In this document: piece by piece, positions 3,259 to 27,780 of the stretch
Numbering within the stretch: the first letter of the stretch is position 1
Layout: each line of letters opens with the position of its first letter
Origin: a bacterium HR21
GTDB taxonomy: Bacteria > Bacteroidota > Ignavibacteria > Kapaibacteriales > HRBIN21
NCBI GenBank assembly: GCA_002898295.1
Contig: BEHX01000009.1
Location: 1-64,000, forward strand
DNA length: 64,000 bases
Direction: 5' to 3'
Notes under the pieces: model-generated
What the model was told of the DNA's origin: nothing
What the model saw: only the letters and a program-made list of their open reading frames with translations
Database searches by the model: none
Translations under genes and position numbers: made by a program

Positions 3259-4116
3259 ATGCGCGGGGTACTGAGCTTGCGTCTCAGCCATCGGTGGTGG
3301 ATCTCATGGGCTGGGCGTCTTTCCGTGCCGGAGTCACGAGTAGTAGACCCACGGTTTGGGAGTGCGCGCAAGCCCCTGCGGTGGTTCGATCTCCTCAGCG
3401 CTGCCGGTACGGCTGCTCTCGTTGGGGTGCTTCTGAAGCTCTTCGTGGTGGATGTCTCCCGCGTTCCTTCCGGCTCCATGGTGCCGGCATTGCTGCCTGG
3501 TGATTACGTGGTGGTGAGCAGAGTCGCCTATGGGGTAGGGCTGCCGCCCCGGCTGCCGCTTTTGGATGTGCGGCTCCCGACGGAGCTGCGCTGGTGGTAT
3601 CGCAGTCCGCACCGGTGGGATATCGTCGTGCTGGACTTCCCCGGTCTTCCTGGTCAGCAGCATCCCGATACACCGCAGTACTTCATCAAGCGGGTGGTGG
3701 GCTTGCCCGGTGATACACTCTGGTTTGCTGGGGATACGCTCGTCATCAACCACACGGCATATTGGCTCCCCGGGATGCGGGAGCCGCCGCGCCGCGTTGT
3801 GGTTCCTTACCGGGGTATGGTGCTGCGGCTAGCGCCGCAGACCGCTGAGCAATGGCTGCCGCTCCTGCAGCGGGAAGGTGTCCAGGTCGAGCTCCGGGGC
3901 GGTGTCGTTTACCGGGATGGCAGCCCGGTGGACTCCTATACCGTGCAGCAGGACTACTTCTTCGTCATGGGGGATAACTATCGCACCAGCTGGGATTCCC
4001 GCCATTGGGGTGTTGTACCGCGGAGCGCCGTTATCGGGAAGGCAGTGGCGATCTTCTACTCCCGGGACGAGAACGGACGGATTCGGTGGGCACGGATCGG
4101 GCGTCTGCTGCGTTGA
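3259..4116 (+). CDS. Signal peptidase I (second of a tandem pair)
   Basis: This is a 285-aa S26 signal peptidase that starts on the base after the stop codon of the first. It has one membrane segment (about residues 47-66), catalytic Ser73 in RVPSGSMVPALL, Lys144 in YFIKRVVGLPGD, and the GDNYRTSWDSRHWG signature. Both catalytic residues are present, so it should be active. It diverges strongly from its neighbour outside the boxes, so the pair looks like an old duplication with separate substrate ranges (inference). Translation is probably coupled to lepB. Its stop overlaps the hemW start (ATGA). Confidence 0.93.
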   Translation: MRGVLSLRLSHRWWISWAGRLSVPESRVVDPRFGSARKPLRWFDLLSAAGTAALVGVLLKLFVVDVSRVPSGSMVPALLPGDYVVVSRVAYGVGLPPRLPLLDVRLPTELRWWYRSPHRWDIVVLDFPGLPGQQHPDTPQYFIKRVVGLPGDTLWFAGDTLVINHTAYWLPGMREPPRRVVVPYRGMVLRLAPQTAEQWLPLLQREGVQVELRGGVVYRDGSPVDSYTVQQDYFFVMGDNYRTSWDSRHWGVVPRSAVIGKAVAIFYSRDENGRIRWARIGRLLR

Positions 4117-5426
4117 TGCGCGGGCTTTACATCCATATCCCCTTCTGCCAGCACAAGTGTAGCTACTGCGACTTCTACGCGGTAGAGCGCCTGGAGATGG
4201 TGGAACTCTTCGTGGAGGCGCTCTGCCGGGAGGTTGCCTTGCTACCGGAGAACTTTCCCGAAGCAGTGCAGGAGCCGATCGGCACGCTCTACTTCGGGGG
4301 TGGAACCCCTTCGCTCTTGGCGCCGCACCAGCTGGAGCGGATTCTCGCAGCTCTCCAGCGGGTCTTCCGCTTCGAGTCCAAGCTTGAATGGACTCTGGAA
4401 TGCAATCCCGGCACGGTTGACCGCCAGCGATTGCAAGCCTATCGGGCGGTCGGAGTCAATCGAATCAGCTTCGGAGTGCAGTCTTTGGCAGACGACGAGC
4501 TGCGTTTTCTGGAGCGTCTGCACTCGGCAGAAGATGCTTGCCAGGCAGTGGAATGGGCATTTCAGGCTGGCTTCGACAATGTGAATGTGGATCTCATGTT
4601 TGCGCTGCCTGGGCAGACGTTATTGTCATGGCAGCGGACGCTAGAGAGAGTCCGTGCTCTGGCGCCGCAGCACATCTCTGCCTATAGCCTCATCTGGGAG
4701 CCGGGAACGCCGCTTTACCGGCGGTGGCAACAGGGGCAGATCGCCCCTGTATCCGAAGAGCTCGAAAGTGCTCAGTATGAACTGGCTGCCTCGCTGCTGG
4801 AGCAGGACGGCTATGTGCACTATGAGGTCTCGAACTTCGCTCAGCCGGGATACGTGTGCCGGCATAACTTGCTCTACTGGCACGGTGAACAGTACGTTGC
4901 TCTGGGACCGGCGGCGCACGGCTATGTGAACGGGCGCCGGTATTGGAATGTCCGCAACCTGCGGCGCTATCTCGAGCTACTGCGCCAGGGCAAGCTCCCG
5001 ATTGCGGGAAGCGAGCAGCTCAGCGCCTACCAGCGGCTCGAGGAGGTGCTCTTCCTCGGACTGCGCTCCGATGGACTCCGCTTTGAGTCTATCCGCCGGG
5101 AGTTTGGGCTAGAGCTGGAAAGGGAAGCGCAGGAGCTCTTTCAGCGGTGGGATGAAGCGGGACTGCTGCGGCTCTGGACTCCGGAGCGGCTCTGGCTCAA
5201 TAGCCGGGGATATGCACTCTGCGACGAGCTAGCCGCTGAGCTGGTCGTGTTCGCCGAGCGCCTCTGGAAGCGGCGCTACGGTACAGACTCTATGCCGGGG
5301 GTGCTTCCTCTTCGGGTACTCGACGAGGAAGCTGTGCTCGGAGCTCTTCCGGGGTATGCACAGGCTGTTGACAGCTCCAGTTCGTGCACACGTATGCCGT
5401 CGCTTCCCCGCGGAGGGCATAAGTAG
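4116..5426 (+). CDS. hemW: Radical SAM heme chaperone HemW
   Basis: This 436-aa cytoplasmic radical SAM protein is of the HemN-like HemW group, which handles heme rather than oxidizing coproporphyrinogen. The cluster motif [15 protein letters not shown] gives CX3CX2C without the fourth Cys of true HemN. FGGGTPS, ECNPG and [11 protein letters not shown] follow, with a HemN C-terminal domain at about residues 290-390. The ATG at 4116 overlaps the previous stop as ATGA. The family usually ends near residue 390. The last 45 or so residues are unconserved and lie antisense to the end of the convergent DUF255 gene, a 137-bp overlap. Confidence 0.92.
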
Positions 5427-7374
5427 CGTAGGCAGGCGCCAGAGAGCGCAGCTCTTCCCATTGAGTTGCCGTTGCAGCTCCGAGCACAACCGTGCGAGGC
5501 AGGAATGAGCGATGGACTTCCCGGACAAGCGCGGCGAATCGCTCGCTCGGTTCGGGAGCAAGGCAGAGGACTTCCGTTGTCGGACCCAGCGCCATGTCGA
5601 GCGCTATCAACGTGGTGGGGAATGCCATCGGGACTTGCACAAGGGCGTCGGGCAGCCCGCCGAGAGCCTCTTCTGCCCATGTGTGCCAGAGAGGGTTACC
5701 CGTCATGTGTGCGAGCCGGAGGAAGCTCCAGCAGGCGATGGCAGAGCCGGCGGGGATTGCCCCATCGGCGTCATCGCGGTAGCGCAAGGGGAGTTCCGCC
5801 GCAGTCGGAGCGTTCGGGCAAAAGGCTCGGCGTGTGGCGTCCCAGAAGCGGTCGCGGAGTTCTTGTCCCAAGCGCACAGCTGCCTTCAGAAATCGGGGGT
5901 CGAAAGTAGTCTGGTATAGCTCCAGCATGCCCCACAGGAGGAAAGCGTAGTCATCGAGCAGTGCAGGGACTGCCCCTTCTCCCTCGGCATAGCGGTGGAA
6001 GAGTCTGCCGTGGGCATCCCATTGCTGGAGGAACCACTGCGCTACCTGCTGTGCCAGAGTAGTGAATTCGTCCTGACCGAAGACGCGGGCAGCCACTGCG
6101 AGGGCAGCCAGGAGCAGCCCGTTCCAATCGGTGAGCACTTTTTCGTCCCGCTGGGGAGGAATGCGCCGCTGGCGGTATGCAAAGAGCTTCGTGCGGATCG
6201 ACTCCCACCGCTGCTGGAGCGCTTCAGCGGTGGTGCCGAACTGGGCTGCCAGCACGTCCCATGGTGCTGTCTGGATGAGCAGATTGCGTCCGGTTCCCGG
6301 AACATTCCCTTCGGGTTCAACACCGAAGGCGAGGTGGAGGAAGTGCTCCTCCTCGGGGGATAGTAGGGCTTGCAGTTCCGCAGCGCTCCAGAGGTAGAAG
6401 GCGCCTTCTTCGCCGGCGCTGTCGGCATCTTCGGAGGTATAGAAAACGCCGTCGGGTGAGCGCAGAACACGCGTGCAGTAGGAGACAACCTCGCGCACGG
6501 TGCGTTCCCAGAGCGGGTTCGGGCGAATGGAGAAGGCTTCGGCGTAGAGCAGTATCAGCAGGGCTTGGTCAGAGAGCATTTTCTCAAAGTGTGGGATTCG
6601 CCAGCGTTCATCCGTGGCATAGCGATGGAAACCGAAGCCGACATGGTCGTAGATGCCGCCCAGGCGCATTGTCCGCAGGGTATGCTCGACCATTGTGAGC
6701 GCTTGCGGTATACCGGTTCGATACCACCAGCGCAGGAGGAAGAGCTGCTGTGGGACCATGGGGAATTTCGGAGCGCCGGCAAGACCACCGGAGCGCATGT
6801 CCCAGTTTTGCTCCAGCTGGGCGTAGCCATGCCGAAGGAGTTCGTCGGCGGGAGGCAGACCTGACAGTGGGCGGGAACGGCTCTGAAGTGCTTCCACGAG
6901 CTGTTCGGCATAGGAGAGGAGCTCTCCGCGGCGCTCTCTCCAGAGTTGGGCAATTTCCCGCAGGAGCCTCAAGAATCCCGGGCGTCCGTGGCGGTCGGAT
7001 TTCGGGAAGTACGTTCCGGCGAAAAAAGGCTTACCATCGGGCGTCAAGAACAGTGTCAGCGGCCAGCCGCCATGTCCGGTCAAGGCTTGGCAGACTTGCA
7101 TGGCGAAGGCATCCACGTCGGGGCGTTCTTCGCGGTCCACCTTGATAGGAACGAAGTGTGCGTTGAGGACTTCGGCGACCTCTGGGTCGGCGAAGGACTC
7201 CCGTTCCATGACATGGCACCAGTGGCATGCCGAGTACCCGATGGAGAGCAGGATAGGCTTGTCCTCGTGCTGTGCTCGGGCAAAAGCTTCCGGACCCCAA
7301 GGGTACCAGTCAACGGGGTTATCGGCGTGTTGGCGGAGGTAGAGGCTCTTTTCCTGGGCAAGTCGGTTAGGCAT
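5290..7374 (-). CDS. DUF255 thioredoxin-fold protein (YyaL/SPATA20 family)
   Basis: This 694-aa protein has the family architecture: an N-terminal thioredoxin-like domain (about residues 1-170) and a C-terminal (alpha/alpha)6-barrel resembling glycosidases. Diagnostic motifs are [26 protein letters not shown] (CxxC), [22 protein letters not shown] and FAGTYFP. The substrate of the family is unknown. The ATG at 7374 overlaps the end of the upstream DinB-like gene by 8 bp, so the two are probably co-translated. The 3' end overlaps hemW by 137 bp in the convergent direction. Confidence 0.92.
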
Positions 7375-7903
7375 CTGCGCGGCGGGGATGGTGGGCTTGC
7401 CAGAGGCGCAGCACGAGGATCAGCTGCCCGGCGTGGTAAGCGGCATGTTCGGCGATGTGGTGCAGGATAGTTGAGCGCCGGACCGGAATACGTCGGCGCC
7501 CAACGTAGCGCTGGCGGTAGAGAGCATCCGGTGCCAAGAGCCGGAGTCGCTGGCGAATGCCTTCGTGGAGAGCTTCTAGATCGGCAAGGAGGTCTTCCTT
7601 GCTCGGTAGCGGCTCCGGGAGCGTCCAGTCATGCTGTGCCTCGGCAGCTAGCGCCTCGTAGTCGGGATTGCGAGAGAAGGCATACGTTGCCAGCCGCTCA
7701 CTGGAGCAAATCACATGGTGGATGCGGCTCCCAATCGAAGGAATCCCCGGTGCGGGTTCCCACCAGAGCGCGTCCGCGGGGGTAGCTTCCAGATGCTCCC
7801 GCAGCCAGTAGAAGGCTTGCTCGAGGCTCTTGAAGAGATCCAGGAAGTGGTACTCCGTCGGATCAGCTGCTTCGGCATCGTCAGGGCGAAGCCACGGCTC
7901 CAT
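7367..7903 (-). CDS. DinB-like four-helix protein (metal-dependent thiol transferase fold)
   Basis: This 178-aa protein of the DinB/YfiT-like superfamily shows the helical-bundle pattern and the usual metal-binding histidines: one in [10 protein letters not shown] near residue 65 and an HxxxH in [14 protein letters not shown] near residue 155. Members include bacillithiol- or mycothiol-dependent transferases, which is suggestive because a BshA homologue is encoded at 32799-33944; the real substrate is unknown. Start chosen at the ATG at 7903 ([12 protein letters not shown]). A longer frame to 7972 begins at a non-ATG codon and adds no recognizable sequence. Its last 8 bp overlap the DUF255 gene. 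Confidence 0.8.
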
Positions 7904-8830: not shown

Positions 8831-11353
8831 GTGACACCAGCAGCGCGGCGTTCCGAACGGCAGAGGGGAACACCAGAGCGGCAGTGGCTCAGCCGCCTGA
8901 TCCCGGAGCGCTACCATGACCTGGCGCTCTGTCTGCTCATCTGGGTGGCTCTCTGGGTTTTCCTGGCACCGGCGGTCTTCGGCGGAGGGGTTTTCGCTGC
9001 CTCGGACAATCTGGCGTCGTGGAGTTTCGGTCCATACCTGCAAGCGGCTCGTCGGGAGGGGACATTTCCGCAGTGGATTCCGTACATCTTCAGCGGTATG
9101 CCCTCGTTTGCCTCGTTGCTGGTGACCGGGACGCGGTGGTGGGATTTCCTCATGCAGCTCACCATTGGGCTGACGCAGCTGGTGGGGGATCTTCTCCGGA
9201 GCGATGCTGCCCGGGTTTCGTGCTTCTACATTGGCTATGGCATTGGCATGTACTGGCTGCTGCGGTTCCGTGGACATCAGCGCCTGGTTGCTTTCTGGGG
9301 TGCGCTGGCGGCGGTGTTCTCTACCTTCATCATCGCCTGGATTCTCATCGGGCACAACACGAAGCCCTGGGCGCTGATGACGCTCCCGTATGGGCTGCTG
9401 TTACTGGAACGGCTCCGGCAACGTTTCTCATTGCTGTGGGCGGCGCTGCTGGTAGTTGTCCTCCACGTCATGCTGCTCTCCGCCCACGTGCAGATGGTGT
9501 TCTACCTGGGGCTCTTCTACGCTGTCTACTTGCTCGTTGAGCTGCTGGTACGGGCGCTCCGGCGGGAAAACCCACTGGGCGTTCTTCGTGCCGGTGGGAT
9601 ACTGGTGGTTGCTTCCGGGATTGCTTTCGGGCTGTCGGCAGACCGGTTCCTGAGCACGTTGGAGTACACACCGTACTCGACACGGGGCAGCCTGCCGATC
9701 CATCTGGACTCTGCCCAGCGAGCAAAAGCGGCAGAAGGGGGGCTCGATTACGAGTACGCCACCAACTGGTCCTTCAGCCCGCAGGAGATGATTACGTTCC
9801 TGGTGCCGAACTTCTACGGCTTCGGGAAGCTGGAGTACCGGGGTCCGCTGAGTAATAATCGTCCGGTGATGCTCCACACGTACTGGGGGCAGATGCCGTT
9901 CACAGATGCGGCAAACTACATGGGCATTGCCGTGCTCTTGCTGGCGCTGTTCGGAGTGTGGCGGTTGCGGCGTGATCCCTTCGGGATTACCCTGGTGGGA
10001 GTGGCACTGCTGGGATTGCTACTCTCCTTTGGGAAGAACTTCCCGCTGGTGTTCGACCTGTTTTTCTACCACGTGCCGCTCTTCAACAAGTTCCGGGCGC
10101 CGAGCATGGCGCTGGTCCTCGTGCAGGTTGCTGTTCCGATTCTGGCGGCGGCAGGGCTTTCCACGGTGTTGGGCTGGCGCTGGCAGCCGGAGCCTGCAAC
10201 TCGGACATTCTTCCGCTGGGCATTCGGGGCGCTCGGTGTCTGGCTCCTTCTCGGGGTGATTGTCTGGGCATTCTTCGAACAGTCCTATCTCGAGGCGGTT
10301 GCTCGAAGCCCGATAGGTAAGCAGTATCCGCCGGCAATCCACGCCTTTATCTGGAGCCAGATGATCGAGGATTGGTTCATGACGACTTTCCTCGGGCTGG
10401 CAACTCTGGGGGTTCTCTGGCTCTTCGTTCGGGGACGACTCTCCTCGGAGCTGCTGGGCGTGCTGCTGGTAGGGCTTCTGCTTTGGGACCTCTGGCGAGT
10501 GGCACTCCGCCCGATGGAGCTCGAGCGCCGGAGACCGGAGGAGACGGTCTTCCGGCGGACCGATATCATCGACTTTCTCAAGCAGCAGCGCGGGCTTTTC
10601 CGTGTGGCGGATTTCGCAAGCGCAGTGCCGAATGCGAGCGCCTACTGGTTTCTGGAGAACATCCACGGCTACCACGCCGCTAAGCTCCGGGTATACCAGG
10701 ACATGCTCGATGTTGCGGGCAACGGCGGCGGCTCCGTGGTGCTCAATCCCTTCCTCTGGAACTTGCTCAATGTGCGCTTCGTCATCACCCCGGAGCCGCT
10801 TGCGGTGGAGCCGCTCCGGCTGCTGTTCCGCTCGCAGCAGACAGGGGCGTATCTCTACGAGAATCCGGCGGCACTGCCGCGGGCATTTTTCGTCGATAGT
10901 GTGGCTGTCTTGCCGCCGTTGGACATCCTGCGCCGTCTCCAGCGTGGAGACTTCGACCCACGCCGGGTTGCCTTTCTGGAGGCGCCGCTGCCAGAACGAA
11001 TTGAACCTGCTGGAGAAGGAGCCACCGCGCAGGTGCTTGTGCACAAAAACGAGTACATCAAACTGCACGTTACCGCGCCGGGACGGAATTTCCTGTTCGT
11101 GAGCGAGATTATCTATCCACCGGCGTGGCAGGCGACGATTGACGGGGAGCCGGTCCCGATCTACAAGACCAACTATGCATTTCGGGGCATCGTTGTACCA
11201 CCGGGGACACACACGGTGGAGTTTCGCTACCGCTCGCCGGCATTCGAACGGGGACGGCAGCTGAGCCTCGGACTCAACATCGGGGTACTGCTTGCCGTGG
11301 CTGCCGGAGCGTGGTTGGAGTGGCGGCGTCGGAAGCGCTCTGCCCTGCGCTGA
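8831..11353 (+). CDS. YfhO-like polytopic membrane protein (GT-C-type fold)
   Basis: This 840-aa inner-membrane protein has a dozen or more predicted helices between about residues 30 and 590 and a soluble C-terminal beta-domain ending before one last helix (about residues 810-828). The early loop has SDNLASWSFGPYL and GTFPQWIPYIFSGMPSF, resembling the first catalytic loop of lipid-linked-sugar glycosyltransferases. YfhO in Bacillus is linked to lipoteichoic acid glycosylation; here the acceptor is unknown. Start chosen at GTG 8831 because GGAGGA lies about 8 bp upstream; a GTG at 8771 would add 20 residues overlapping the esterase gene. Confidence 0.85.
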   Translation: MTPAARRSERQRGTPERQWLSRLIPERYHDLALCLLIWVALWVFLAPAVFGGGVFAASDNLASWSFGPYLQAARREGTFPQWIPYIFSGMPSFASLLVTGTRWWDFLMQLTIGLTQLVGDLLRSDAARVSCFYIGYGIGMYWLLRFRGHQRLVAFWGALAAVFSTFIIAWILIGHNTKPWALMTLPYGLLLLERLRQRFSLLWAALLVVVLHVMLLSAHVQMVFYLGLFYAVYLLVELLVRALRRENPLGVLRAGGILVVASGIAFGLSADRFLSTLEYTPYSTRGSLPIHLDSAQRAKAAEGGLDYEYATNWSFSPQEMITFLVPNFYGFGKLEYRGPLSNNRPVMLHTYWGQMPFTDAANYMGIAVLLLALFGVWRLRRDPFGITLVGVALLGLLLSFGKNFPLVFDLFFYHVPLFNKFRAPSMALVLVQVAVPILAAAGLSTVLGWRWQPEPATRTFFRWAFGALGVWLLLGVIVWAFFEQSYLEAVARSPIGKQYPPAIHAFIWSQMIEDWFMTTFLGLATLGVLWLFVRGRLSSELLGVLLVGLLLWDLWRVALRPMELERRRPEETVFRRTDIIDFLKQQRGLFRVADFASAVPNASAYWFLENIHGYHAAKLRVYQDMLDVAGNGGGSVVLNPFLWNLLNVRFVITPEPLAVEPLRLLFRSQQTGAYLYENPAALPRAFFVDSVAVLPPLDILRRLQRGDFDPRRVAFLEAPLPERIEPAGEGATAQVLVHKNEYIKLHVTAPGRNFLFVSEIIYPPAWQATIDGEPVPIYKTNYAFRGIVVPPGTHTVEFRYRSPAFERGRQLSLGLNIGVLLAVAAGAWLEWRRRKRSALR

Positions 11354-12023: not shown

Positions 12024-16118
<4,095 letters not shown>

Positions 16119-16138
16119 GCCTGCTCATCGGCTGCGTG

Positions 16139-16813
16139 TTAGACATACGCGCGCCAGGTTCGGCGTCGGCGGAAGAGTGGTCCGAGCAGCATGCCAGCAA
16201 AGAAGCCACCGACGTGTGCCCACCATGCGACCCCACCCATATTCTCGGCGCTGAGCAGCATGCCGTTGTAGAGCTGCAACACGACCCAGAACCCCAGGAA
16301 GAGGAATGCGGGTACCTCCAGCGAAAGCAATGTGATGAAGAGCGGCACGATGGTGATGATACGTGAATGCGGGAAGAAGAGGAGGTATGCCCCCATCACC
16401 CCGGAGATTGCCCCGCTGGCACCCACTGTCGGGATCATCGAGCCTGGATTCGTCACCGCATGGGCAATAGCTGCGGCAATCCCGCACAGCAGGTAGAACA
16501 GCAGGAACCGCCCATGTCCGAGAGCATCTTCGACGTTGTCCCCGAAGAGCCATAAGTACCACATGTTGCCCAGGATGTGCGCGAAGCCACCGTGGAGAAA
16601 CATTGAGGTCAGCACCGGTTGCCAGCGCTCCCAGGAAAGGAGCGGTGCCTCAAAGAACGCTGCCGGGAAGAAGGCAAAGCGGTGCAGGAATTGCTCCATT
16701 GCCGCTTCTGGCAGCAGCACCTGGTAGAGGAAGACGAGCACATTTGCCCCAATCAGCCCGATGGTGATCCAGGGCTTTGAAGAAGAAGGAATCGTGTCGT
16801 ACAGAGGGAACAT
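16139..16813 (-). CDS. Rhomboid-family intramembrane serine protease
   Basis: This 224-aa inner-membrane protein has about six hydrophobic segments. The catalytic Ser is in VGASGAISG and the catalytic His in WWAHVGGFFAG; HILGNMWYLWLFGDNVED supplies the conserved loop and asparagine residues of the family. The substrate is unknown. The ATG at 16813 begins MFPLYDTIPSSS as in many family members; an upstream frame reading through fbp was rejected. The gene follows fbp by 22 bp and leads into the unknown-obgE-barrel series. Confidence 0.92.
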   Translation of the reverse strand: MFPLYDTIPSSSKPWITIGLIGANVLVFLYQVLLPEAAMEQFLHRFAFFPAAFFEAPLLSWERWQPVLTSMFLHGGFAHILGNMWYLWLFGDNVEDALGHGRFLLFYLLCGIAAAIAHAVTNPGSMIPTVGASGAISGVMGAYLLFFPHSRIITIVPLFITLLSLEVPAFLFLGFWVVLQLYNGMLLSAENMGGVAWWAHVGGFFAGMLLGPLFRRRRTWRAYV

Positions 16814-18490: not shown

Positions 18491-19990
18491 CTACCAGCGG
18501 CGGAGGGCAAGACCATAGCGGCGCTGGATATGGAAGCGGGCGCGCTCGGCATCGGCTGCCGTGGCAAAGCCCCAGAGCTTGATGCGGAAGGCGGGTTCAC
18601 CATTGTGGACTATGGGTTCGTAGTAGGCGGCGTACCCTCGGGCTTCCCAGAGTTCGACCATGCGGAGAGCTTGCGCTTCGGTTGCCGCAGTGCCGGCAAG
18701 GAGCTCGTAGGGGAGCAATTCGGGGCGGAGCCAGCGGAGTTCGACTCGGCAATTTGAGCGCTGCTGATGGGGGGAGTTCTCAAAGTAGGAGAGTGGGCGG
18801 CGATTCCCTTCACTGCGCACGCGAAGCTGCCGCGAGGCAACGCCGAGCCGTAGGAGGCGGCGCCGGAGAGCCTGGACCCGCTGCAGCGCGAGCGCCTCAG
18901 CTGCCTTCTCGCTCTGCCCGCTGTGTCCGAGAAGTTCGACAACCTCCTGCGGATGTGCCCGGAGCCACTGTGCCAGGTCTTCCAGCAGGGGCTCGGTTTC
19001 CGGACCGATGGCGGTGTCGCCGGGCTCGAAGAAGCAGAGCGTCCGAAACAGCGGCACCTGCCCCGGGAGCGAATCCTCCACCTGGTACCGGAAAAAGACC
19101 CCGAGCTGCGCTGAGGAAAAGACAAGCTGGAGAACCCCGCACGGCGGTGGAGCCGGGAAGCGGAGACGATAGTGTACCTGCAGCCCGCGCACCAGCCAGC
19201 TCAGCTGCCAGGCAAGGATGTCTGGGGCTGCCACGGCGTTCCAGACGTAAATACCCCCGGTCCGGCACGCGAGAGCTTTCCAGAGAGCACGCTCGCCCAT
19301 CATTCCGCTCTGGAGAACGCAGATCGGGAGCGCCAGCTGGCGGGCACTCTCGATGACCTCCTCTGCGGAGACCAGAAACGACGCCTGATCCGATGCCTCG
19401 GTCAGCAGCACGAGAGCTCGGAGGCGCACCGAGGGTGCCTGCCGGCAGTACTCCAGAGCGGCTTGGAGAATGTGAAGTGGGGCGGCTGTTCCCGAAGGGG
19501 GAAGGATGAGCATCGTGTCAACGGCTGCTGCAGCGTGCCAGCCGGACACGGCGTGAATAGCATCGGCGCGGTAGCGGTACTGGACGACCACGAGCCGATC
19601 CTCGGGGCGAAGGTGCTGCACAACGGTTGCGAGCATCTCGCGGAGAGCCGCCGGCGAGAGGGTTGCCGCGGCTGAGCGATCTAAGCACAGCAACAGCTCC
19701 AGCGGTGGGGAAGTCTCAAGGGTCCCTTGCAGCGGTCCGAGTCGAGAAGTGTCTGCTGGGCACTGGATTGTCAGCTCCCAACTGGGGAGCGCAGGTGGAA
19801 CAGCTGCCCGTGTCCATAGGTGCGGGACCGTAATCCACGCCTGCCACTGCGTTGTATCCAGGGACAGCCGTACCAGCCAGGCTCCTTCCTGTCCGAGTGC
19901 GCCGGGTGCGCCGATAGCCACGCTGAGAAACGCAGAGACAGTCCTACACAGGCGAGGAAGCTTTCGTGAGCACCAGACGCCCTTCTGCAT
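18491..19990 (-). CDS. Secreted protein with VWA-like, OmpA-like and SPOR domains
   Basis: This 499-aa exported protein has a signal-peptide-like N-terminus (to about ...GAPGALGQ). A von Willebrand factor A-like region follows (about residues 85-280: [36 protein letters not shown]), with an incomplete metal-site DxSxS. Next is an OmpA-like peptidoglycan-binding domain (about residues 318-420: [40 protein letters not shown]), then a C-terminal SPOR-like segment ([16 protein letters not shown]...). Two peptidoglycan-directed modules suggest a periplasmic or cell-wall-bound protein. The start is uncertain: ATG at 19990 overlaps the clpB-like gene by 47 bp; a longer frame reaches 20029. Confidence 0.7.
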
Positions 19991-21266
19991 CGCGGTCAAC
20001 CAGGACCGTGTCACCGGCTGTAAACTCACCGGCGAGAATCTTCATCGCCAGCGGGTTTGCCACGAAGCGCTCCAATGCACGCCGGAGGGGACGAGCGCCG
20101 AACTGCGGGTCATAGCCAATAGTGGCCAGCCATTCCAGAGCAGCATCGGTGACCTGCAGGTCCAACCCGCGCTGGTGCACACGCTCCCGGAGGCGCTCCA
20201 ACTGGAGCTGAGCAATGCGTTTGACCTCTTCCCGGAGCAACGGTTTGAAGATGATGATCTCGTCAATGCGGTTGAGGAACTCCGGACGGAAACGCTGGCG
20301 AAGGAGCTCCAGAATCGGTTCCCGCAGTCGCTCCATCACTGCTTCCCGGTTAGCCTCGGAGAGATTCCCCATTGCCTCCTGGATCAGCTCAGTGCCGAGG
20401 TTCGAGGTCATGATGATGAGCGTGTTGCGGAAGTTGACCGTGCGCCCTTTCCCATCAGTGAGCCGACCGTCTTCGAGGACCTGCAACAGGACGTTGAAAA
20501 CTTCCGGATGCGCCTTCTCGATTTCGTCGAAGAGCACGACCGAGTACGGACGCGTGCGGACGGCTTCGGTCAGTTGTCCTCCCTCTTCGTAGCCTACGTA
20601 TCCAGGTGGGGCACCGATGAGGCGGGAGACGGAGTGTTTCTCCATGTACTCGCTCATGTCAATGCGGATCAGAGCGTTCTCATCGTCGAAGAGGAACTCT
20701 GCCAGCGCCCGAGCCATTTCGGTTTTGCCCACCCCGGTTGTGCCCAGGAAGATAAATGAGCCAATCGGACGGTTGGGGTCCTGGAGCCCAGCGCGGGAGC
20801 GGCGAATCGCGTTTGCAATGGCGCTCACGGCGTCCTCCTGGTCCACAATGCGCCGATGGAGGCGTTCTTCCATGTGAAGCAGCTTTTCCCGTTCGCCTTC
20901 CAGCATACGCTGTACGGGGATACCCGTCCAGCGAGCAACGATCTCGGCGATGTCTTCGGCATCTACCTCTTCTTTGAGCATACGCCCGGAGCGCTCCAGT
21001 TCTTCGGTATAGCGCTGCAGTTCGCGCTCCAGTTCGGGGATGCGCCCGTAGCGGATTTCAGCAACGCGACCGTAGTCGCCCCGTCGCTCGGCTTCCGCAG
21101 CTTCGATCCGAGCTTGCTCAATCTGCTCTTTGAGCGAGCGAATGTGCTGGAGGATTGCTTTCTCCCGTTCCCACCGTTGACGCAGCTGCTCGTATTCAGC
21201 CCGGAGGCGGGCAAGCTCGGCTTCAATCTCTTCGAGGCGCTTCTTCGTCGCAGTAGCGGCGTCCAT
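19944..21266 (-). CDS. N-terminally truncated ClpB: middle-domain part plus second AAA+ ring
   Basis: The 440-aa product aligns to only the C-terminal half of ClpB (about 860 aa). Residues 1-125 are the coiled-coil M-domain minus its first helix ([31 protein letters not shown]), ending in ARWTGIPV. The second AAA+ domain has Walker A GTTGVGKT (175-182; canonical GPTGVGKT), pore loop GYVG (222-225), Walker B VVLFDE (243-248), sensor-1 MTSNLG and arginine-finger region [10 protein letters not shown]. The N-domain and first ATPase domain are missing. A TGAGGAG site lies just upstream of the ATG, and the frame meets a stop at 21369-21371 with no NBD1 sequence between, so this is not a simple recent frameshift. 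Full-length ClpB may exist elsewhere. Confidence 0.88.
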
Positions 21267-21972: not shown

Positions 21973-22899
21973 ATGAACATCTGGGAGCAGCAGGCACGGA
22001 ATCGCCGGAATACGCTGCTGCTGATTGCCCTCTTCGTTGCCGTGCTCGCTGCACTCGGTTACGGGGCTGATTGGTACTTCGGCAGCGGGGATTTCCCAGT
22101 GCTGACTGTTCTCGCCTTGATGATGGCAACAGGGCAGGCGCTGGTGGGCTACTTTGCCGGCGATAAAATCGCTCTGGCGCTCAGTAAAGCGCGCCCGGTG
22201 ACAGGGTCCACGTTCGCAGAGCGGCAGCTCATCAATGTGACCGAGGAGATAGCGATTGCCGCCGGGATACCAATGCCAAAGCTCTACATCGTTCCTGATC
22301 CGGACCCGAATGCGTTTGCCACCGGACGCTCCCCACAGCATGCCAGCATTGCCGTGACCGAGGGGCTGCTGCAGATGCTCTCCCGCGACGAACTGCAGGC
22401 GGTGGTGGCACATGAGATCGGGCACATCCGCAACTACGATATCCGCCTCATGACGCTGGTGGCGATCCTGCTGGGAACGGTCCTGATCTTGGCGGATATG
22501 GCGCGGCGTGCCCTCTTCTGGGGTGTGGGACGCCGAGATCGGCGGAGCGAAGCCAACGTAGTGCTTCTGGTAGTGTGGCTGCTGGTCAGCATCCTGGCAC
22601 CGATTGCCGCATACCTGATTGCTATGGCGGTTTCCCGCCAGCGTGAGTACTACGCCGATGCCACCAGCGCGGAGCTCACGCGCAACCCCGAAGCCCTGAT
22701 TCGGGCACTGCAGAAGATTGCCGCCGCTGTTCAACCCACGACGGCAATTCCACAGAGCTTGGCGCACATGTGTATTGAAGACCCGCGTGGGCGCTCCATC
22801 AATGAGAAGACGGGCTTCTGGAGCGAGCTTTTCGCTACCCATCCTCCACTGCATAAACGCATCGAAGCCCTGCGCCGTATGGCATACCTCCAGACCTGA
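21973..22899 (+). CDS. htpX: HtpX-like membrane zinc metalloprotease (M48)
   Basis: This 308-aa membrane protease degrades damaged membrane proteins. There are two N-terminal membrane helices, the zinc motif VVAHEIGHIRNYD (HExxH), two further hydrophobic segments and the third zinc ligand in SRQREYYADATSAELT. Length fits HtpX. It follows lemA by 30 bp, the usual pairing. A 16-bp tandem duplication covers its last codons and stop. Confidence 0.95.
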   Translation: MNIWEQQARNRRNTLLLIALFVAVLAALGYGADWYFGSGDFPVLTVLALMMATGQALVGYFAGDKIALALSKARPVTGSTFAERQLINVTEEIAIAAGIPMPKLYIVPDPDPNAFATGRSPQHASIAVTEGLLQMLSRDELQAVVAHEIGHIRNYDIRLMTLVAILLGTVLILADMARRALFWGVGRRDRRSEANVVLLVVWLLVSILAPIAAYLIAMAVSRQREYYADATSAELTRNPEALIRALQKIAAAVQPTTAIPQSLAHMCIEDPRGRSINEKTGFWSELFATHPPLHKRIEALRRMAYLQT

Positions 22900-22978: not shown

Positions 22979-22986
22979 TATTTTTG
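22979..22986 (+). promoter_or_regulatory. TAnnTTTG -7 promoter element upstream of the type IX cargo gene
   Basis: TATTTTTG matches TAnnTTTG. A start near 22993 would give a leader of about 30 nt before the ATG at 23023. No well-spaced -33 box is evident. Confidence 0.45.
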
Positions 22987-23022
22987 GGCAAGTGTCAGTC
23001 AATCAAGTCCGTGAGGTGTGTC

Positions 23023-26000
23023 ATGCGTTCGAGGCTAACTCTTGTGCTGGTCAACGCGCTGCTGGGGTTGTTCTGGGTGGCTCCGAGCTCTGCCCAGGAG
23101 AAGGTGGAAATCCTCGGGGGGCGTGAATACTGGCTGGGATTCCCGCACTCGTGGATCTATCCGACGGAGACTGCTCGCGGGATTTCCGCCCTCCAGCTCT
23201 GGGTTGCGTCGCGGGAGGCTGCTCGCGTCCGCGTCTACACCAACGGCGGGCAGATGCTCTACCAGGAATTCACTACGCAGCCCAAGAAGACGTTCGTCGT
23301 GGCGATCCCTATGGACCACATGAACATTGACCCCGGGGTGGCAGCCGACAAAGGCATCCGGGTTGTTGCCGATAAGCCAATTGTGGTCACCGGCTACGTC
23401 AGCTTCACCATTTCTGGGGAAGCCTTCATGTGCATCCCGGTCGAGGCGCTGGGGAAGCGCTACTTCACGCTGAACATGTACCAGGACTGCGTGGGCAATG
23501 ACTACCGCCCGGCGCAGATCCTCATCATCGCCACGCGGGATAATACCGTCGTGCGCTACTACCCGACGACAGAGACTAGCGACGGGGTGCGCCCCGGGCA
23601 GTACAAGGAAATTCGCCTCAGTAAGGGGCAGACCTACCTCATCAAAGCCAAAATTGACCCGCGCTACAACCAGGACTGGAAGACGGATCTGACGGGCACC
23701 TACATCGAAGCAAACGAGCCCATCGCCGTCATCTCCGGTCATACGAAGGGATCGTATCCCCGCTACTCCTGTACAATGCTTAGCACACCGGCGCACTTCA
23801 TGCGGAACTCGCTCATGGACATGATGTGGCCGGTGGAGCTCTGGGGGACGATGTATATCTCGGCGCCGATCATGTACAAGAACCGTCCTCGCAATGGGGT
23901 AGACATTGACGATGCGGGGGATTTGATCCGCTTCGTTGCCTCCGAGGATGGGACAATCATTGAGCAGCTACGGCAGGACGGTTCGCAGGAGTGGCAGCAG
24001 ATTAGCCCTCCGCTGCGGCGCGGACAGTGGTTCAATATCAGCGCCCAGGAGTACGCTGCCGCCTATCGGGCAAATAAGCCGATCCTGGTGGGGCAGTATG
24101 GGAAGGCGTGGCGCTTGACCGCAGTCAGCCCAATCATCGGGAAAGAAGAAGAACAGCCTCAGAACCCGCCACGGAATGGCGAGGGGATGCTCATGTGCTT
24201 GACCCCGCGTGAACGCTGGGCAACGTATACGACGTTCTACGCTCCGCCCGGCATGGACAACTTCTTCATGATCACCTTCGAGATGAGCCGAGTGGACGAC
24301 ATTTACTTCGATGGGGTCAAGCTGCGCAACAAGTTCAGTGGTGGCATCAAGCCGGTGCAGGGAACTCCGTACGGCTATGTGGTCGCCATCGTGACTCCGG
24401 GTGACCATACTGTGGAGAGCAAAAATGGGGCGCAGTTTGCCGTCTACGCTTACGGGAACCTGGATCTGAGCAAAAGCGGATTCGCCTACGGCTATCCGAC
24501 GGGCATCAATTACGCCACACCGTGTGCTGATACTGTGCTGATTACCGACCGGGAAGAGTGCGGCACGGTGACGGGAACGGTCGAGGTGCGTCCAACCACT
24601 CCTGTCACAGAGTGCGCTCGCCTCTTCTCCGTTGCGCTGGATTCGGCGGTCAACTACGAGCTCATTCTGCCCGAGGAGTTCCGCCCCAGCTACGACCAGC
24701 GCACGAGCTTCGAGTTGCGTCCTGTTGATCCTCGGCAGGATGCCTATGCCCGGCTGGAGGTTATTGCCAAGTCGGGCAAGCGAGTGGTCAAGGAGTACCG
24801 GTACATTGCCGAGGCAGTGGTGGCAGAACCCCCCGTGGTAGATTTCGGCACAGCTCCCTTCGGTGAGCCGGTGGAGCAGACCGTGACGCTGCGCAATCTC
24901 AAGCCGCGTCCGGCGACAATCAAGCAGCTCTACCTGCGTTCGCGGCTGGCCGAATTTGAGATTCTCTCGCCAACACCCCAGGACTTCCCCCTGGTTCTCC
25001 AGCCAGCTGGTACCCCGGGCGACCGGGTCGAGGTCCGGATTCGGGCAACGGCGCAGGTGCCGGAGCTCCGTGTGGATTCGCTCTACGCCGAGCTGAGCTG
25101 CTACCCGGTTCCCCTGGCTGAAGTGCGCATCCAGGGCAACGAGCCTATCATGTGGGTGGATGATGCCGACTTCGGTGCGGTCCCTGTCGGCACAGAACGG
25201 ATGCGGCAAGTGCGCATTGAAAGCCGCGGGCGCCTCCCGCTGCGCATCACCGCAGTAGACTGGGCCGATAAGGCACACTTCCGCACAGAGGGGCTGCTGG
25301 AAGCGCTCCCCTTGCAGATTGACCCTGGACAGAGCTACACGTTCCGTGTCTACTACAAGCCGGATGTCGCTGGTGTCCCGCACCAGACGCGGGCAACCTT
25401 CACGGTCAACGCGACCAAGATCAAGCTCTACTCCGATTGGCGCGGGACAGGCATCCAGGTCAACATCAGCATCCATGGCTATGACTGGGGCATCCGCCGG
25501 GTTGCCGATGCGTATGCGCAGCTGGATGACCCCACACTCGGCTATCGTGGGGAGGTCATCATCCGGGTCACGGGTAACACCGCCATCAACAATGTGGACG
25601 TGACGGTCGAGGATGCCTCCGGGTATCCGAACGATCGGCTGGCGTTCCGCGTAGACAAGACCAGCTTGCCGCCTCAGCTGCAGCCCGGTCAAGAAGTCCG
25701 CTTGCCGGCATACTTCAAGCCGTTGGAGGAGCGGGAGTACCGGGCACGGGTTGTTGTCCGGGGCTTCGATAATGGCGAACCGCGCGAGGCAGAAGATGAG
25801 CTCCGTGGCATCGGGGTGCAGCCGCACGTCGCGGCGGACGGGCGCGACTTTGGTACCCTCATGGTCGGGCAGAGCAAGCAGGATGAAGCCCCTGTCTACA
25901 GCCGGGGGACAATGGAGCTGACAGTGCGGGACTTCGAAATCGTCGGTCCCGATGCCAATGCCTTCCAGGTGGAGCCGAACTTCCTGCGTCAGGTGAGAGA

Positions 26001-27243
26001 CCAAGGGCTGAGAATCCCGCAGGGAGAGAGCGTCCAGGTTCCTGTGATCTTCACAGCGCTGCGGGTCGGTGAACACCGGGCGAATCTGCGAGTTATCTCC
26101 GATGCCCCGGAGACACCAGAGCCGGAGCTTATCGGACGAGGGATTTCGCAAGGGCTGGCAGCAACCGACTACGACTTTGGGCGTCACTTCGTGACTACCC
26201 GTGTGGAGAAGCAAGCCGCCGTCTTCGTCCGCAACACGGGAGCCGCGCGGGTCTATGTGGAGCGCATCGAGAAGGTCTCCGGGGATATCAATACCTTCGA
26301 TGTGCTGACCCCCGCAGGCTTCTGGATTGAACCCGAAAGCGAGTATCCCATTGATGTCGCCTTCGCCCCCGATGCTGAGCGGCGTTACCAGATGCAGATC
26401 CGCTACGTGACCAATATCGGCGATGCGTACTCTACCGTCTGGGGCGAAGGGCGCCGGGTCTACGGAGTAGTCCGCATTGGCGAATACCGCACGACACCAG
26501 GGCAGGAGCTGAATATCACGGTTGAACTCACGCGGCATCCCAATGGCGCTCTCCGTCCGGAGGACCGGGATGTGACCGATGGCGCTATCCAGAGCTTCGA
26601 AGCCCGGGTCTGGTACGATGAGCGAATGCTCGAGCCGGTCCTGGTGCCGGAGGCGATCTCCACGGTGGGGACTCTGACGGAAGGATGGACGGTGGAGTAC
26701 GTGCAGCCCTTGCCGAAGCACGTGCCACCGGGTGGAACTGAGCCAATGTCTGCCTTCCAGGTGAAGCTGAGCGGGACGACTCCGCTCCAACTGACACAGG
26801 ATGTCAACCCGCTTTTCCGCTTCCGGGCGCGAGCCTTTCTGGCTCCCTTCGATCGGAGCGCGCTTCCCTGCCAAATGGTACCGCTGGATCGCCCCTACGT
26901 GGTCATCGAAGAGCAGCCTGGGCTGGTTCGCTTGACGGTGCCGTGTGTGGAGAATCTGCGCCTGGTGCGGCTCAATCCAATGGGCTATAGCCTCCAGCAG
27001 GTAGTGCCGCAGCCAGCCCGCGGAGTTGTCCAGCTGCGCTACAGCATTGGCTATAGTGGCTGGACGCGGCTGGAGCTCTTCAACGCCATGGGCGAACGCG
27101 TCGCCATGCTGGTGGACCAAGAACAGCAAGCGGGCGAGTACGAGCTGACGCTCGATACACGGCTCTTCCCTGCCGGGGTTTACTACTACCGACTCAGCTC
27201 CGGACCGTATACCGAGACGCGGCGGCTCGATATCGTCAACTAG
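23023..27243 (+). CDS. Large exported protein with IgGFc-binding-like head, ASH-type repeats and type IX sorting domain
   Basis: This 1406-aa protein is predicted to be surface-exposed or secreted. The signal peptide ends near APSSAQ. Residues about 25-500 resemble the IgGFc-binding protein N-terminal domain (REYWLGFPHSW, a repeating beta-pattern). Then come at least four choice-of-anchor/ASH-like beta-repeats starting near residues 604, 709, 939 and 1047, each with a DFG core (VVDFGTAPFG, DADFGAVPVG, GRDFGTLMVG, DYDFGRHFV), and a cohesin-like region (about 1146-1290). The end is a type A C-terminal sorting domain (about 1330-1406: RLELFNAMGERVAML ... FPAGVYYYRLSSG). The ATG at 23023 has GAGGTG upstream; a TTG frame from 22984 was rejected. 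Confidence 0.85.
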   Translation: MRSRLTLVLVNALLGLFWVAPSSAQEKVEILGGREYWLGFPHSWIYPTETARGISALQLWVASREAARVRVYTNGGQMLYQEFTTQPKKTFVVAIPMDHMNIDPGVAADKGIRVVADKPIVVTGYVSFTISGEAFMCIPVEALGKRYFTLNMYQDCVGNDYRPAQILIIATRDNTVVRYYPTTETSDGVRPGQYKEIRLSKGQTYLIKAKIDPRYNQDWKTDLTGTYIEANEPIAVISGHTKGSYPRYSCTMLSTPAHFMRNSLMDMMWPVELWGTMYISAPIMYKNRPRNGVDIDDAGDLIRFVASEDGTIIEQLRQDGSQEWQQISPPLRRGQWFNISAQEYAAAYRANKPILVGQYGKAWRLTAVSPIIGKEEEQPQNPPRNGEGMLMCLTPRERWATYTTFYAPPGMDNFFMITFEMSRVDDIYFDGVKLRNKFSGGIKPVQGTPYGYVVAIVTPGDHTVESKNGAQFAVYAYGNLDLSKSGFAYGYPTGINYATPCADTVLITDREECGTVTGTVEVRPTTPVTECARLFSVALDSAVNYELILPEEFRPSYDQRTSFELRPVDPRQDAYARLEVIAKSGKRVVKEYRYIAEAVVAEPPVVDFGTAPFGEPVEQTVTLRNLKPRPATIKQLYLRSRLAEFEILSPTPQDFPLVLQPAGTPGDRVEVRIRATAQVPELRVDSLYAELSCYPVPLAEVRIQGNEPIMWVDDADFGAVPVGTERMRQVRIESRGRLPLRITAVDWADKAHFRTEGLLEALPLQIDPGQSYTFRVYYKPDVAGVPHQTRATFTVNATKIKLYSDWRGTGIQVNISIHGYDWGIRRVADAYAQLDDPTLGYRGEVIIRVTGNTAINNVDVTVEDASGYPNDRLAFRVDKTSLPPQLQPGQEVRLPAYFKPLEEREYRARVVVRGFDNGEPREAEDELRGIGVQPHVAADGRDFGTLMVGQSKQDEAPVYSRGTMELTVRDFEIVGPDANAFQVEPNFLRQVRDQGLRIPQGESVQVPVIFTALRVGEHRANLRVISDAPETPEPELIGRGISQGLAATDYDFGRHFVTTRVEKQAAVFVRNTGAARVYVERIEKVSGDINTFDVLTPAGFWIEPESEYPIDVAFAPDAERRYQMQIRYVTNIGDAYSTVWGEGRRVYGVVRIGEYRTTPGQELNITVELTRHPNGALRPEDRDVTDGAIQSFEARVWYDERMLEPVLVPEAISTVGTLTEGWTVEYVQPLPKHVPPGGTEPMSAFQVKLSGTTPLQLTQDVNPLFRFRARAFLAPFDRSALPCQMVPLDRPYVVIEEQPGLVRLTVPCVENLRLVRLNPMGYSLQQVVPQPARGVVQLRYSIGYSGWTRLELFNAMGERVAMLVDQEQQAGEYELTLDTRLFPAGVYYYRLSSGPYTETRRLDIVN

Positions 27244-27270
27244 ATCTGCCGCATTCCCAAGCAGCTCTGG

Positions 27271-27309
27271 GCAGGGGCACAGGACCTCCTGTGCCCCTGT
27301 CGTTTTCTT
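27271..27309 (+). terminator. Rho-independent terminator after the type IX cargo gene
   Basis: A 13-bp perfect inverted repeat (CAGGGGCACAGGA with TCCTGTGCCCCTG, 27272-27299) has a two-base centre and is followed by CGTTTTCTT. It lies 29 bp after the stop codon and ahead of a new promoter box, so it should end the upstream transcript. Confidence 0.85.
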
Positions 27310-27350
27310 ATCCCCAGGAGCAGATGCGGGAGGAATCTCCGGCTTTTCCG

Positions 27351-27358
27351 TAAGTTTG
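27351..27358 (+). promoter_or_regulatory. TAnnTTTG -7 promoter element upstream of the DUF971 gene
   Basis: TAAGTTTG matches TAnnTTTG and lies 14 bp before the ATG at 27373, directly downstream of a terminator. This placement suggests a short leader and an independent DUF971-hutU transcript. Confidence 0.5.
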
Positions 27359-27372
27359 AAGCCCGAGTGTGC

Positions 27373-27780
27373 ATGGCACGCCTTGTAGCAATTCGGCGAG
27401 TGCGTCCCCAGGTGCTCCAGTGTCTGTGGGATGACGGCTTGGCAGTGTACCTGCCGGTGGAGGTGCTGCGTGACCAATGCCCCTGTGCCTTTTGTCAAGG
27501 CGAACAGGTTTTCGACCGATATATCCTCCCGGTGCGGGTTGTAGCGCCGGGAATGTACGAGCTGCAAGCTCTGGAGCCAGTGGGGCACTATGGACTCCGG
27601 GCGGTGTGGAGAGACGGGCACAATACGGGAATTTATCCATGGGAGCTCCTGCGTCGGCTCTGTGAGGAATACGGGCAGCGGGAGCCGAGAGCGGATGATG
27701 TTCAGCAAACCGGTGCCGGTGATGAGCGTGCTCCAGAAGGAGAGTCTCCGAGCCCCTCGGGGGAGCCGACTGCATTGTAA
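27373..27780 (+). CDS. DUF971 (GBBH-like N-terminal domain) protein
   Basis: This 135-aa protein has the DUF971 fold: [12 protein letters not shown] with its cysteines, then [28 protein letters not shown]. Family members occur alone or fused to iron-sulfur carriers or hydroxylases, and their role is not firmly known. The last 30 or so residues are Pro/Glu/Ser-rich and overlap the start of hutU by up to 86 bp in another frame. The ATG at 27373 is preferred to an upstream alternative start at 27367. Confidence 0.85.

Follow-up and report, generated by a model that had tools for sequence, protein, structure and literature searches.

We analyzed a 64,000-nucleotide stretch of DNA from bacterium HR21, a member of the Bacteroidota order Kapaibacteriales (GenBank assembly GCA_002898295.1, contig BEHX01000009.1, positions 1 to 64,000; here called the window), and focused on one long forward-strand gene that a sequence-only reading had described as encoding a type IX secretion cargo. 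The gene is a single frame whose stop codon ends at position 27243 and which opens either at TTG 22984 (1419 amino acids [aa]) or at ATG 23023 (1406 aa). We favored the ATG because GAGG lies 5' of it and the resulting leader ends in SSA before QE; the letters of the leader vary among relatives. Together, the open frame, the GAGG, and the leader bear out the 1406-residue open reading frame (ORF) proposed earlier. Behind the leader, the protein consists of an IgGFc_binding-type head, five Ig-like segments, a cohesin-like module, and a C-terminal sorting domain (Table 1).

Table 1. Features of the gene and its flanks (window coordinates; residues of the 1406-residue protein)
Feature	Position	Strand	Basis
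TAnnTTTG -7-type promoter box, TATTTTTG	22979..22986	+	last base 36 bases before ATG
GAGG, possible ribosome binding site	23013..23016	+	six bases 5' of ATG 23023, by eye
Coding sequence, 1406 aa	23023..27243	+	frame analysis, profile matches
Leader, residues 1-24, signal-peptide-like, SSA then QE at its end	23023..23094	+	by eye
Head start, residues 25-133	23095..23421	+	no family matched when scanned alone
IgGFc_binding (PF17517) domain, residues 134-478	23422..24456	+	Pfam, E 4.9e-43
Residues 495-600, conserved cysteines 501, 513, 531	24505..24822	+	no family matched when scanned alone
ASH-type repeat 1, DFG 607, weak alone	24802..25161	+	TMEM131_like_N 0.0012, ASH 0.037
ASH-type repeat 2, DFG 716	25138..25443	+	ASH 2.8e-5
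ASH-like repeat 3, DWG 821, weak alone	25420..25842	+	Ig_CFAP65 0.00062, about last third only
ASH-type repeat 4, DFG 942	25810..26142	+	HYDIN_VesB 9.5e-6
ASH-type repeat 5, DFG 1051	26128..26466	+	ASH 0.0011
Cohesin-like module, residues 1144-1276	26452..26850	+	PF00963 in orthologues; model resemblance
C-terminal type IX (type A) sorting domain, residues 1328-1402	27004..27228	+	TIGR04183; model
Intrinsic terminator-like hairpin, then T-rich run	27270..27301	+	terminator scan; folding

The head matched the Pfam family PF17517 at 147.9 bits (cutoff, 25.6) over positions 2 to 297 of the 297-position profile, and the same profile matched all 25 orthologues in our alignment at an E value of ≤1 (best, 9e-52). 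The IgGFc-binding-like label of the sequence-only reading is thus right as a sequence family; it tells nothing about IgG, and no support for IgG binding was found, the literature searched being that under open license in PubMed Central. Among 20 distant orthologues compared with the query in blocks of 50 residues, identity was 0.40 to 0.58 over residues 101 to 500, compared with 0.21 to 0.34 over residues 601 to 1300, and it reached 0.43 in the tail (residues 1351 to 1400). The head is therefore the best-conserved long part of the protein, as would be expected if it carries the function. A head motif, SGHxC...CNHLVE, occurs in two related genes, L059 of the same genome and L082, and in none of the 25 heads of the window's lineage, 22 of which have SGH[TV]K at that place. 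Part of the second half of the motif is retained in L062, L060, L081, and one L072 head, and four other heads in our tree had no such site with the pattern used. Judged by its sequence, the window's head is a divergent PF17517 lineage. A search of solved-structure sequences returned nothing for the protein alone (E ≤ 1), and the best hit of a head profile had an E value of 1.3.

Behind the head, five Ig-like segments span about residues 594 to 1148, four with a DFG core and one with DWG. Matches above the cutoffs were obtained with choice_anch_D (NCBIfam; 85.7 versus 45 bits, three stretches) and, in Pfam, with HYDIN_VesB (55 versus 25.5 bits, three stretches), ASH, and Cep192_D4. HYDIN_VesB also matched 25 of the 25 orthologues at an E value of ≤1, and a profile of the repeat region made from these orthologues matched solved HYDIN chains (best E value, 8.8e-32). 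When taken individually, repeats 2, 4, and 5 matched ASH or HYDIN profiles at E values of ≤0.0011, with weaker matches for repeats 1 and 3. These data agree with the four or more DFG-core, ASH-type repeats noted earlier.

The cohesin-like module carries the weakest label in the protein. PF00963 had no match in the window's segment (E ≤ 10) or anywhere in the genome, so we call the module cohesin-like and do not class it as a cohesin; the earlier label has indirect support from 4 of the 25 orthologue segments, which PF00963 matched (best E value, 7.9e-5), and from a model. In the AlphaFold2 model of the C-terminal region (predicted local distance difference test [pLDDT], 60.6; predicted template modeling score [pTM], 0.40), the pLDDT per block was about 26 to 71 in the cohesin part and mostly 67 to 78 in the tail. 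Model residues 20 to 152 resembled Clostridium thermocellum scaffoldin in two structures, 4fl4_L (Z score, 6.9; root mean square deviation [rmsd], 3.6; 101 residues aligned) and 3kcp_A (Z score, 6.8; rmsd, 3.2; 100 residues aligned), although matches at a Z score of about 7 may reflect a common arrangement only. We set aside a third cohesin row, 2w1n (Z score, 7.9), for its rmsd of 18.8. A profile of the segment gave a best E value of 0.028 against solved structures, to an ABC transporter component, which we judged to be chance. Few parts of the protein are less conserved than this module (identity of 0.23 at residues 1151 to 1250 in the 20 distant orthologues).

Two dockerin matches slightly above the cutoff elsewhere in the same genome (contig C4, positions 143336 to 143545, 24.5 bits; contig C10, positions 10502 to 10630, 23.0 bits; cutoff, 22.9) make docking through this module conceivable, though unsupported. 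When the C4 locus was scanned as a protein (L077:895-2202, minus strand, 435 aa), the dockerin match scored 23.1 versus 22.9 bits, and two DxNxDG-like motifs were seen by eye. A cohesin part read by eye in the same protein had no backing from Pfam and was rejected.

The C-terminal domain scored above the NCBIfam cutoff for the type IX sorting tail (TIGR04183; 28.1 versus 23 bits), and the corresponding Pfam model, Por_Secre_tail (PF18962), matched all 25 orthologues at an E value of ≤1 (best, 1e-12). In the C-terminal model, the tail (residues about 194 to 282) resembled solved type IX proteins, namely, PorU (6za2_A; Z score, 9.1; rmsd, 2.5; 87 residues aligned) and the tails of mirolase (8qb1_A; Z score, 8.3; rmsd, 2.4; 77 residues aligned) and NucA (8glk_D; Z score, 7.5; rmsd, 2.6; 74 residues aligned). 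The Foldseek matches to 8glk_D (rmsd, 3.8; TMt, 0.63) and 8qb1_A (rmsd, 4.7; TMt, 0.59) concurred; the top Foldseek rows were mostly multidomain matches with an rmsd of ≥16 and were not used. A profile of the C-terminal region built from four sequences found nothing useful among solved structures (best E value, 1.1). The type IX secretion genes that the sequence-only reading had proposed to look for are present in the genome (1.83 Mb in 17 contigs, 95.21% complete), all far above the cutoffs: SprA (943.4 bits over three pieces versus 200), PorU (710 versus 420 bits), and PorV (294.8 versus 90 bits), the last adjoining PorU on contig C1. Of 22 TIGR04183 matches in the genome, 14 were above the cutoff. 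These results support the earlier assignment of the protein as a type IX cargo of a Fibrobacteres-Chlorobi-Bacteroidetes (FCB) bacterium. Neither of the two outcomes that the sequence-only reading had named as refuting it, a genome lacking type IX secretion genes or a tail that does not match the sorting profile, was observed, although the tail scored under the Pfam cutoff.

To place the protein among its relatives, we searched 61 genomes (its own, 5 of the genus, and 55 of the order), all of which matched both the protein and the head profile. Up to 22 head-profile candidates were scored per genome, and several genomes had at least 20 matches each. Heads of the window's type (>550 bits) were found in 32 of the 61 genomes; genome G046 held a piece at 352.7 bits, and the other heads listed scored 335.6 bits or less. 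In this search, the window's lineage was seen in families f1, f2, f4, and f10 and in part of f3 and f9 and was not seen in f5, f6, f7, and f8. The protein is conserved across families of the order, with close relatives encoded in metagenome-assembled genomes (MAGs) labeled Candidatus Kapabacteria, Candidatus Kapaibacterium sp. SKYG35, and Bacteroidota (two). From the alignment of 25 orthologues, we left out loci holding the same gene as another (L015, L016, and L018, the same as L047 to L049; L070, L071, and L076, the same as L036, L039, and L041), cut-off genes (L019 and L050; L038 and L043, cut at the 3' end; and L040, for which the gene was taken from L072), one with an unsettled start (L024), and one beginning with 642 N (L035). 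In a draw of 296 genomes from the phylum, 68 matched PF17517 at an E value of ≤0.001 (67 of them above the cutoff), comprising 25 listed in the same order, 3 in the same class outside the order, and 40 others; none of the 20 nonmatching genomes listed (208 more were not shown) belongs to the order. A second copy carrying the window-type head in a shorter frame (831 to 945 aa) was seen in five f2 genomes (G006:C7:89169, G034:C24:825088, G044:C86:414, G058:C175:2729, and G029:C3:7131), the one in G029 with three internal stops.

The HR21 genome holds five PF17517 genes, including the window's. We built a tree from 22 heads, each scoring >40 bits and longer than 250 residues, in frames of ≥500 residues at 20 loci plus the window; for genome G008, 7 of 8 PF17517 candidates were scored in the phylum draw, and the orthologue and five paralogue stretches were taken. 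All five genes clustered with heads belonging to different families within the order: the window's with 11 further heads (support, 100/100), L059 with L082 (100/99), L061 with L079 (100/99), L060 with L081 and L083 (100/99), and L062 with one L072 head (99/97). The deep branches between lineages were weak (62/96), the root was placed at the midpoint, and the L080 branch was very long. The simplest reading of these groupings is that at least five PF17517 lineages predate the split of these families. Three paralogues have HYDIN-type repeats above the cutoff; their tails scored 20.1, 18.6, and 18.5 versus 23 bits in the protein scan with NCBIfam, and two of these tails exceeded the cutoff (24.5 and 23.1 bits) when the genome was searched.

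The paralogue in L059 (positions 4679 to 7057, minus strand, contig C2) differs in that PF17517, at residues 132 to 429 of 792, was its only match, with no match to a sorting tail. By eye, its C-terminal part looks like an outer-membrane beta-barrel, a reading that had no Pfam support. For 20 of the 25 genomes of the order listed in the phylum draw, PF17517 had its best match in a frame of 788 to 832 residues (in G016, the second best); a grouping with L059 was shown for just one of these genes, L082 of G008. A 257-aa gene directly upstream of the L059 gene (L059:7045-7818, minus strand), which by eye appeared to combine a cohesin-like part with a type IX tail, found no support in Pfam or NCBIfam and was dropped.

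Regarding expression signals, the sequence-only reading credited the gene with its own promoter box. The candidate box is of the form TAnnTTTG, which we take to be the Bacteroidota promoter type. It is present in five of six congeneric upstream regions (the window, L047, L048, L049, and L050), 29 to 36 bases before the ATG, and was not found within 120 bases upstream in the sixth, L017. The mean column identity of the five aligned regions was 48%. A GTG lies 20 bases 5' of the box and is replaced by TTG at that place in three relatives (L047, L049, and L050). The motif occurs at the chance level across the window (7 versus 6.9 expected), so its conservation alone counts in favor of a promoter, and no sigma-70-type site turned up on the forward strand in a promoter scan. 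Downstream of the stop, the hairpin had a folding z score of -4.14 (positions 27244 to 27320), and the number of terminator-like sites in the scanned region (2) was not above that in shuffled sequences (mean, 2.3). An antisense ORF of 1246 aa overlaps the gene (positions 23968 to 27708, minus strand). We rejected it as a gene: the same frame, with 2 stops in the window, is interrupted 12, 9, 4, and 20 times in the copies of four congeneric loci, and L049 retains an open run of 1151 codons. The antisense frame is so long because TTA, CTA, and TCA hardly occur among the sense codons (just 2 of 1406).

The preceding forward-strand ORF (positions 21973 to 22899) is, from its profile matches, an M48 peptidase close to HtpX. 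The M48 match was above the Pfam cutoff, and eight NCBIfam HtpX models matched (best E value, 7.6e-94), all under their cutoffs; the sequence-only reading had placed the gene between htpX and a terminator. Surroundings of the htpX/lemA/clpB type (M48, LemA, and AAA_2 plus ClpB_D2-small) were found at all four congeneric loci, but 14 stretches from outside the family all lacked them. Some different neighbors are common to families f2 and f4 (profiles for the KDO transferase N terminus, enoyl-CoA hydratase, NAGPA, and NamZ), which give no clear hint. We therefore rejected a function guessed from neighbors. Adjoining the orthologue in two f4 genomes is another long gene, which in L065 (positions 12123 to 16232, plus strand) encodes 1370 aa with four Ig_3 stretches (E value, 8.2e-44) and a Por_Secre_tail match of 26 versus 27 bits and has a relative in L066 (positions 3266 to 7486, minus strand). 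Elsewhere in the window, an ORF at positions 18491 to 20029 (minus strand) matches OmpA (44.9 bits) and, less strongly, VWA and SPOR; within the genus, it evolves much faster than its neighbors (42 to 55% best-segment identity versus 76 to 92% for the other genes between positions 16839 and 22896).

Proteins with such a leader and tail are exported by type IX secretion, in which PorU cuts the tail and the protein is attached to the surface. We favor, with moderate confidence, the reading that the window's gene encodes a surface-anchored type IX (type A) protein that would present a ligand-binding head on a stalk and so provide attachment or recognition. The gene would be transcribed from its own promoter, the leader would take the protein across the inner membrane, and SprA with PorV would pass it through the outer membrane, where PorU would trim the C-terminal domain and the protein would become fixed on the cell surface. 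With the tail at the C terminus, the head would point outwards on the Ig-like stalk, made up of the five segments and the cohesin-like module. Conservation of the head suggests binding, and the divergent IgGFc_binding-type head, farthest from the cell, may bind a glycan, a glycoprotein, or the surface of another cell. The architecture fits the long surface adhesin or matrix component suggested by the sequence-only reading.

Several observations weigh against this reading. An AlphaFold2 model of the head from five sequences (the window and L047 to L050) had a pLDDT of 42.5 and a pTM of 0.30 and was not used, so that no binding site could be read off. In the open-license PubMed Central literature, we found no ligand, assay, or function for a bacterial PF17517 head. 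The proposed match of the C-terminal domain to a sorting profile, obtained with NCBIfam, fell under the cutoff with Pfam (PF18962; 20.9 versus 27 bits). The tail model resembled Ig-like proteins outside type IX secretion just as well or better, among them an S-layer protein (Z score, 9.4; the top row) and complement C5 (Z score, 9.3); the fold match alone is thus no proof of sorting. Finally, GldM was not found in the genome with TIGR03517, which matched no control genome and does not show absence, or with PF12081, which matched one control under the cutoff. The missing GldM match perhaps reflects a divergent motor or a gene in the missing part of the genome.

The protein could instead be a structural component of the envelope or matrix, whose repeats and head pack laterally into a sheath, layer, or biofilm scaffold with no specific ligand. 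We consider this rather unlikely. The long stalk of Ig-like repeats would suit such a role, the five PF17517 genes kept in a genome of 1.83 Mb could be layer components, and Ig-like modules of the S-layer protein, of GbpA, and of the biofilm protein RbmA are likewise similar to the tail model, the fold being a widespread one. However, Ig-like folds match many unrelated proteins at such Z scores, and conservation is concentrated in the head and not in the repeats. Quite improbable is a docking scaffold, in which the cohesin-like module would bind a dockerin partner, which would then work in one complex with the head, as in cellulosome-like assemblies. A passage of one study (PMC8542988) infers for Cloacimonadota MAGs a scaffoldin-like protein that contains cohesins and ends in a cell attachment domain, and both the module and two dockerin matches are present in HR21. 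Here, however, there is a single, poorly conserved module, PF00963 matches neither the protein nor the genome, and the dockerin matches are barely above the cutoff. Least probable of all is a periplasmic protein whose last 80 residues are an Ig-like domain of the FlgD_ig type (matched in 7 of 25 orthologues at an E value of ≤1) without sorting function, a reading that would suit the missed PF18962 cutoff and the GldM results but conflicts with the TIGR04183 score, the PF18962 matches across the orthologues, the likeness of the model to solved type IX tails, the 14 genomic tails above the cutoff, and the presence of SprA, PorU, and PorV.

A broader scenario is highly doubtful. The order would carry an ancestral, mucus-protein-like surface set that together builds a coat and comprises five or more ancient PF17517 lineages; the majority would have type IX tails, and one would apparently be fused with an outer-membrane barrel. 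The window's head, which lacks the cysteine stretch of the barrel lineage, would have acquired a new binding role, and the cohesin-like module of the protein would dock one of the dockerin proteins encoded in its own genome. Although the name of PF17517 comes from a human mucus protein, the profile was matched in 61 of 61 genomes searched in this order. With its deep orthologue alignment, the head is a reasonable target for structure determination and a ligand screen. In the open-license PubMed Central literature, we found no study of this protein or its orthologues and no paper on IgGFc-binding with type IX secretion; the passages of PMC8857248, which came up for Kapabacteria and type IX secretion, do not treat Kapabacteria secretion.

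Neither the export route nor any single module is new, and models of the modules exist in Pfam or NCBIfam. Gingipains and mirolase are type A cargo of type IX secretion. The window protein has the TIGR04183 tail in common with such cargo, and its tail fold is like those of PorU and mirolase; unlike gingipain- or mirolase-type cargo, it matched no enzyme domain in Pfam or NCBIfam. The modest-confidence model of its cohesin-like module has a middling fold resemblance to cellulosomal scaffoldin cohesins, whereas the module is single copy and without a PF00963 match. The repeats are of the kind found in choice-of-anchor D, ASH, and HYDIN proteins; unlike in those proteins, they would serve here as the stalk of an exported bacterial protein. 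A review passage (PMC9354016) describes the N-terminal domains of some bacterial proteins as homologous to that of human FCGBP. The window protein shares PF17517 with the FCGBP N-terminal domain and with bacterial PF17517 proteins across nearly the full profile, but where FCGBP continues with vWD/TIL repeats, it goes on to ASH repeats and a cohesin-like module and ends in a type IX tail.

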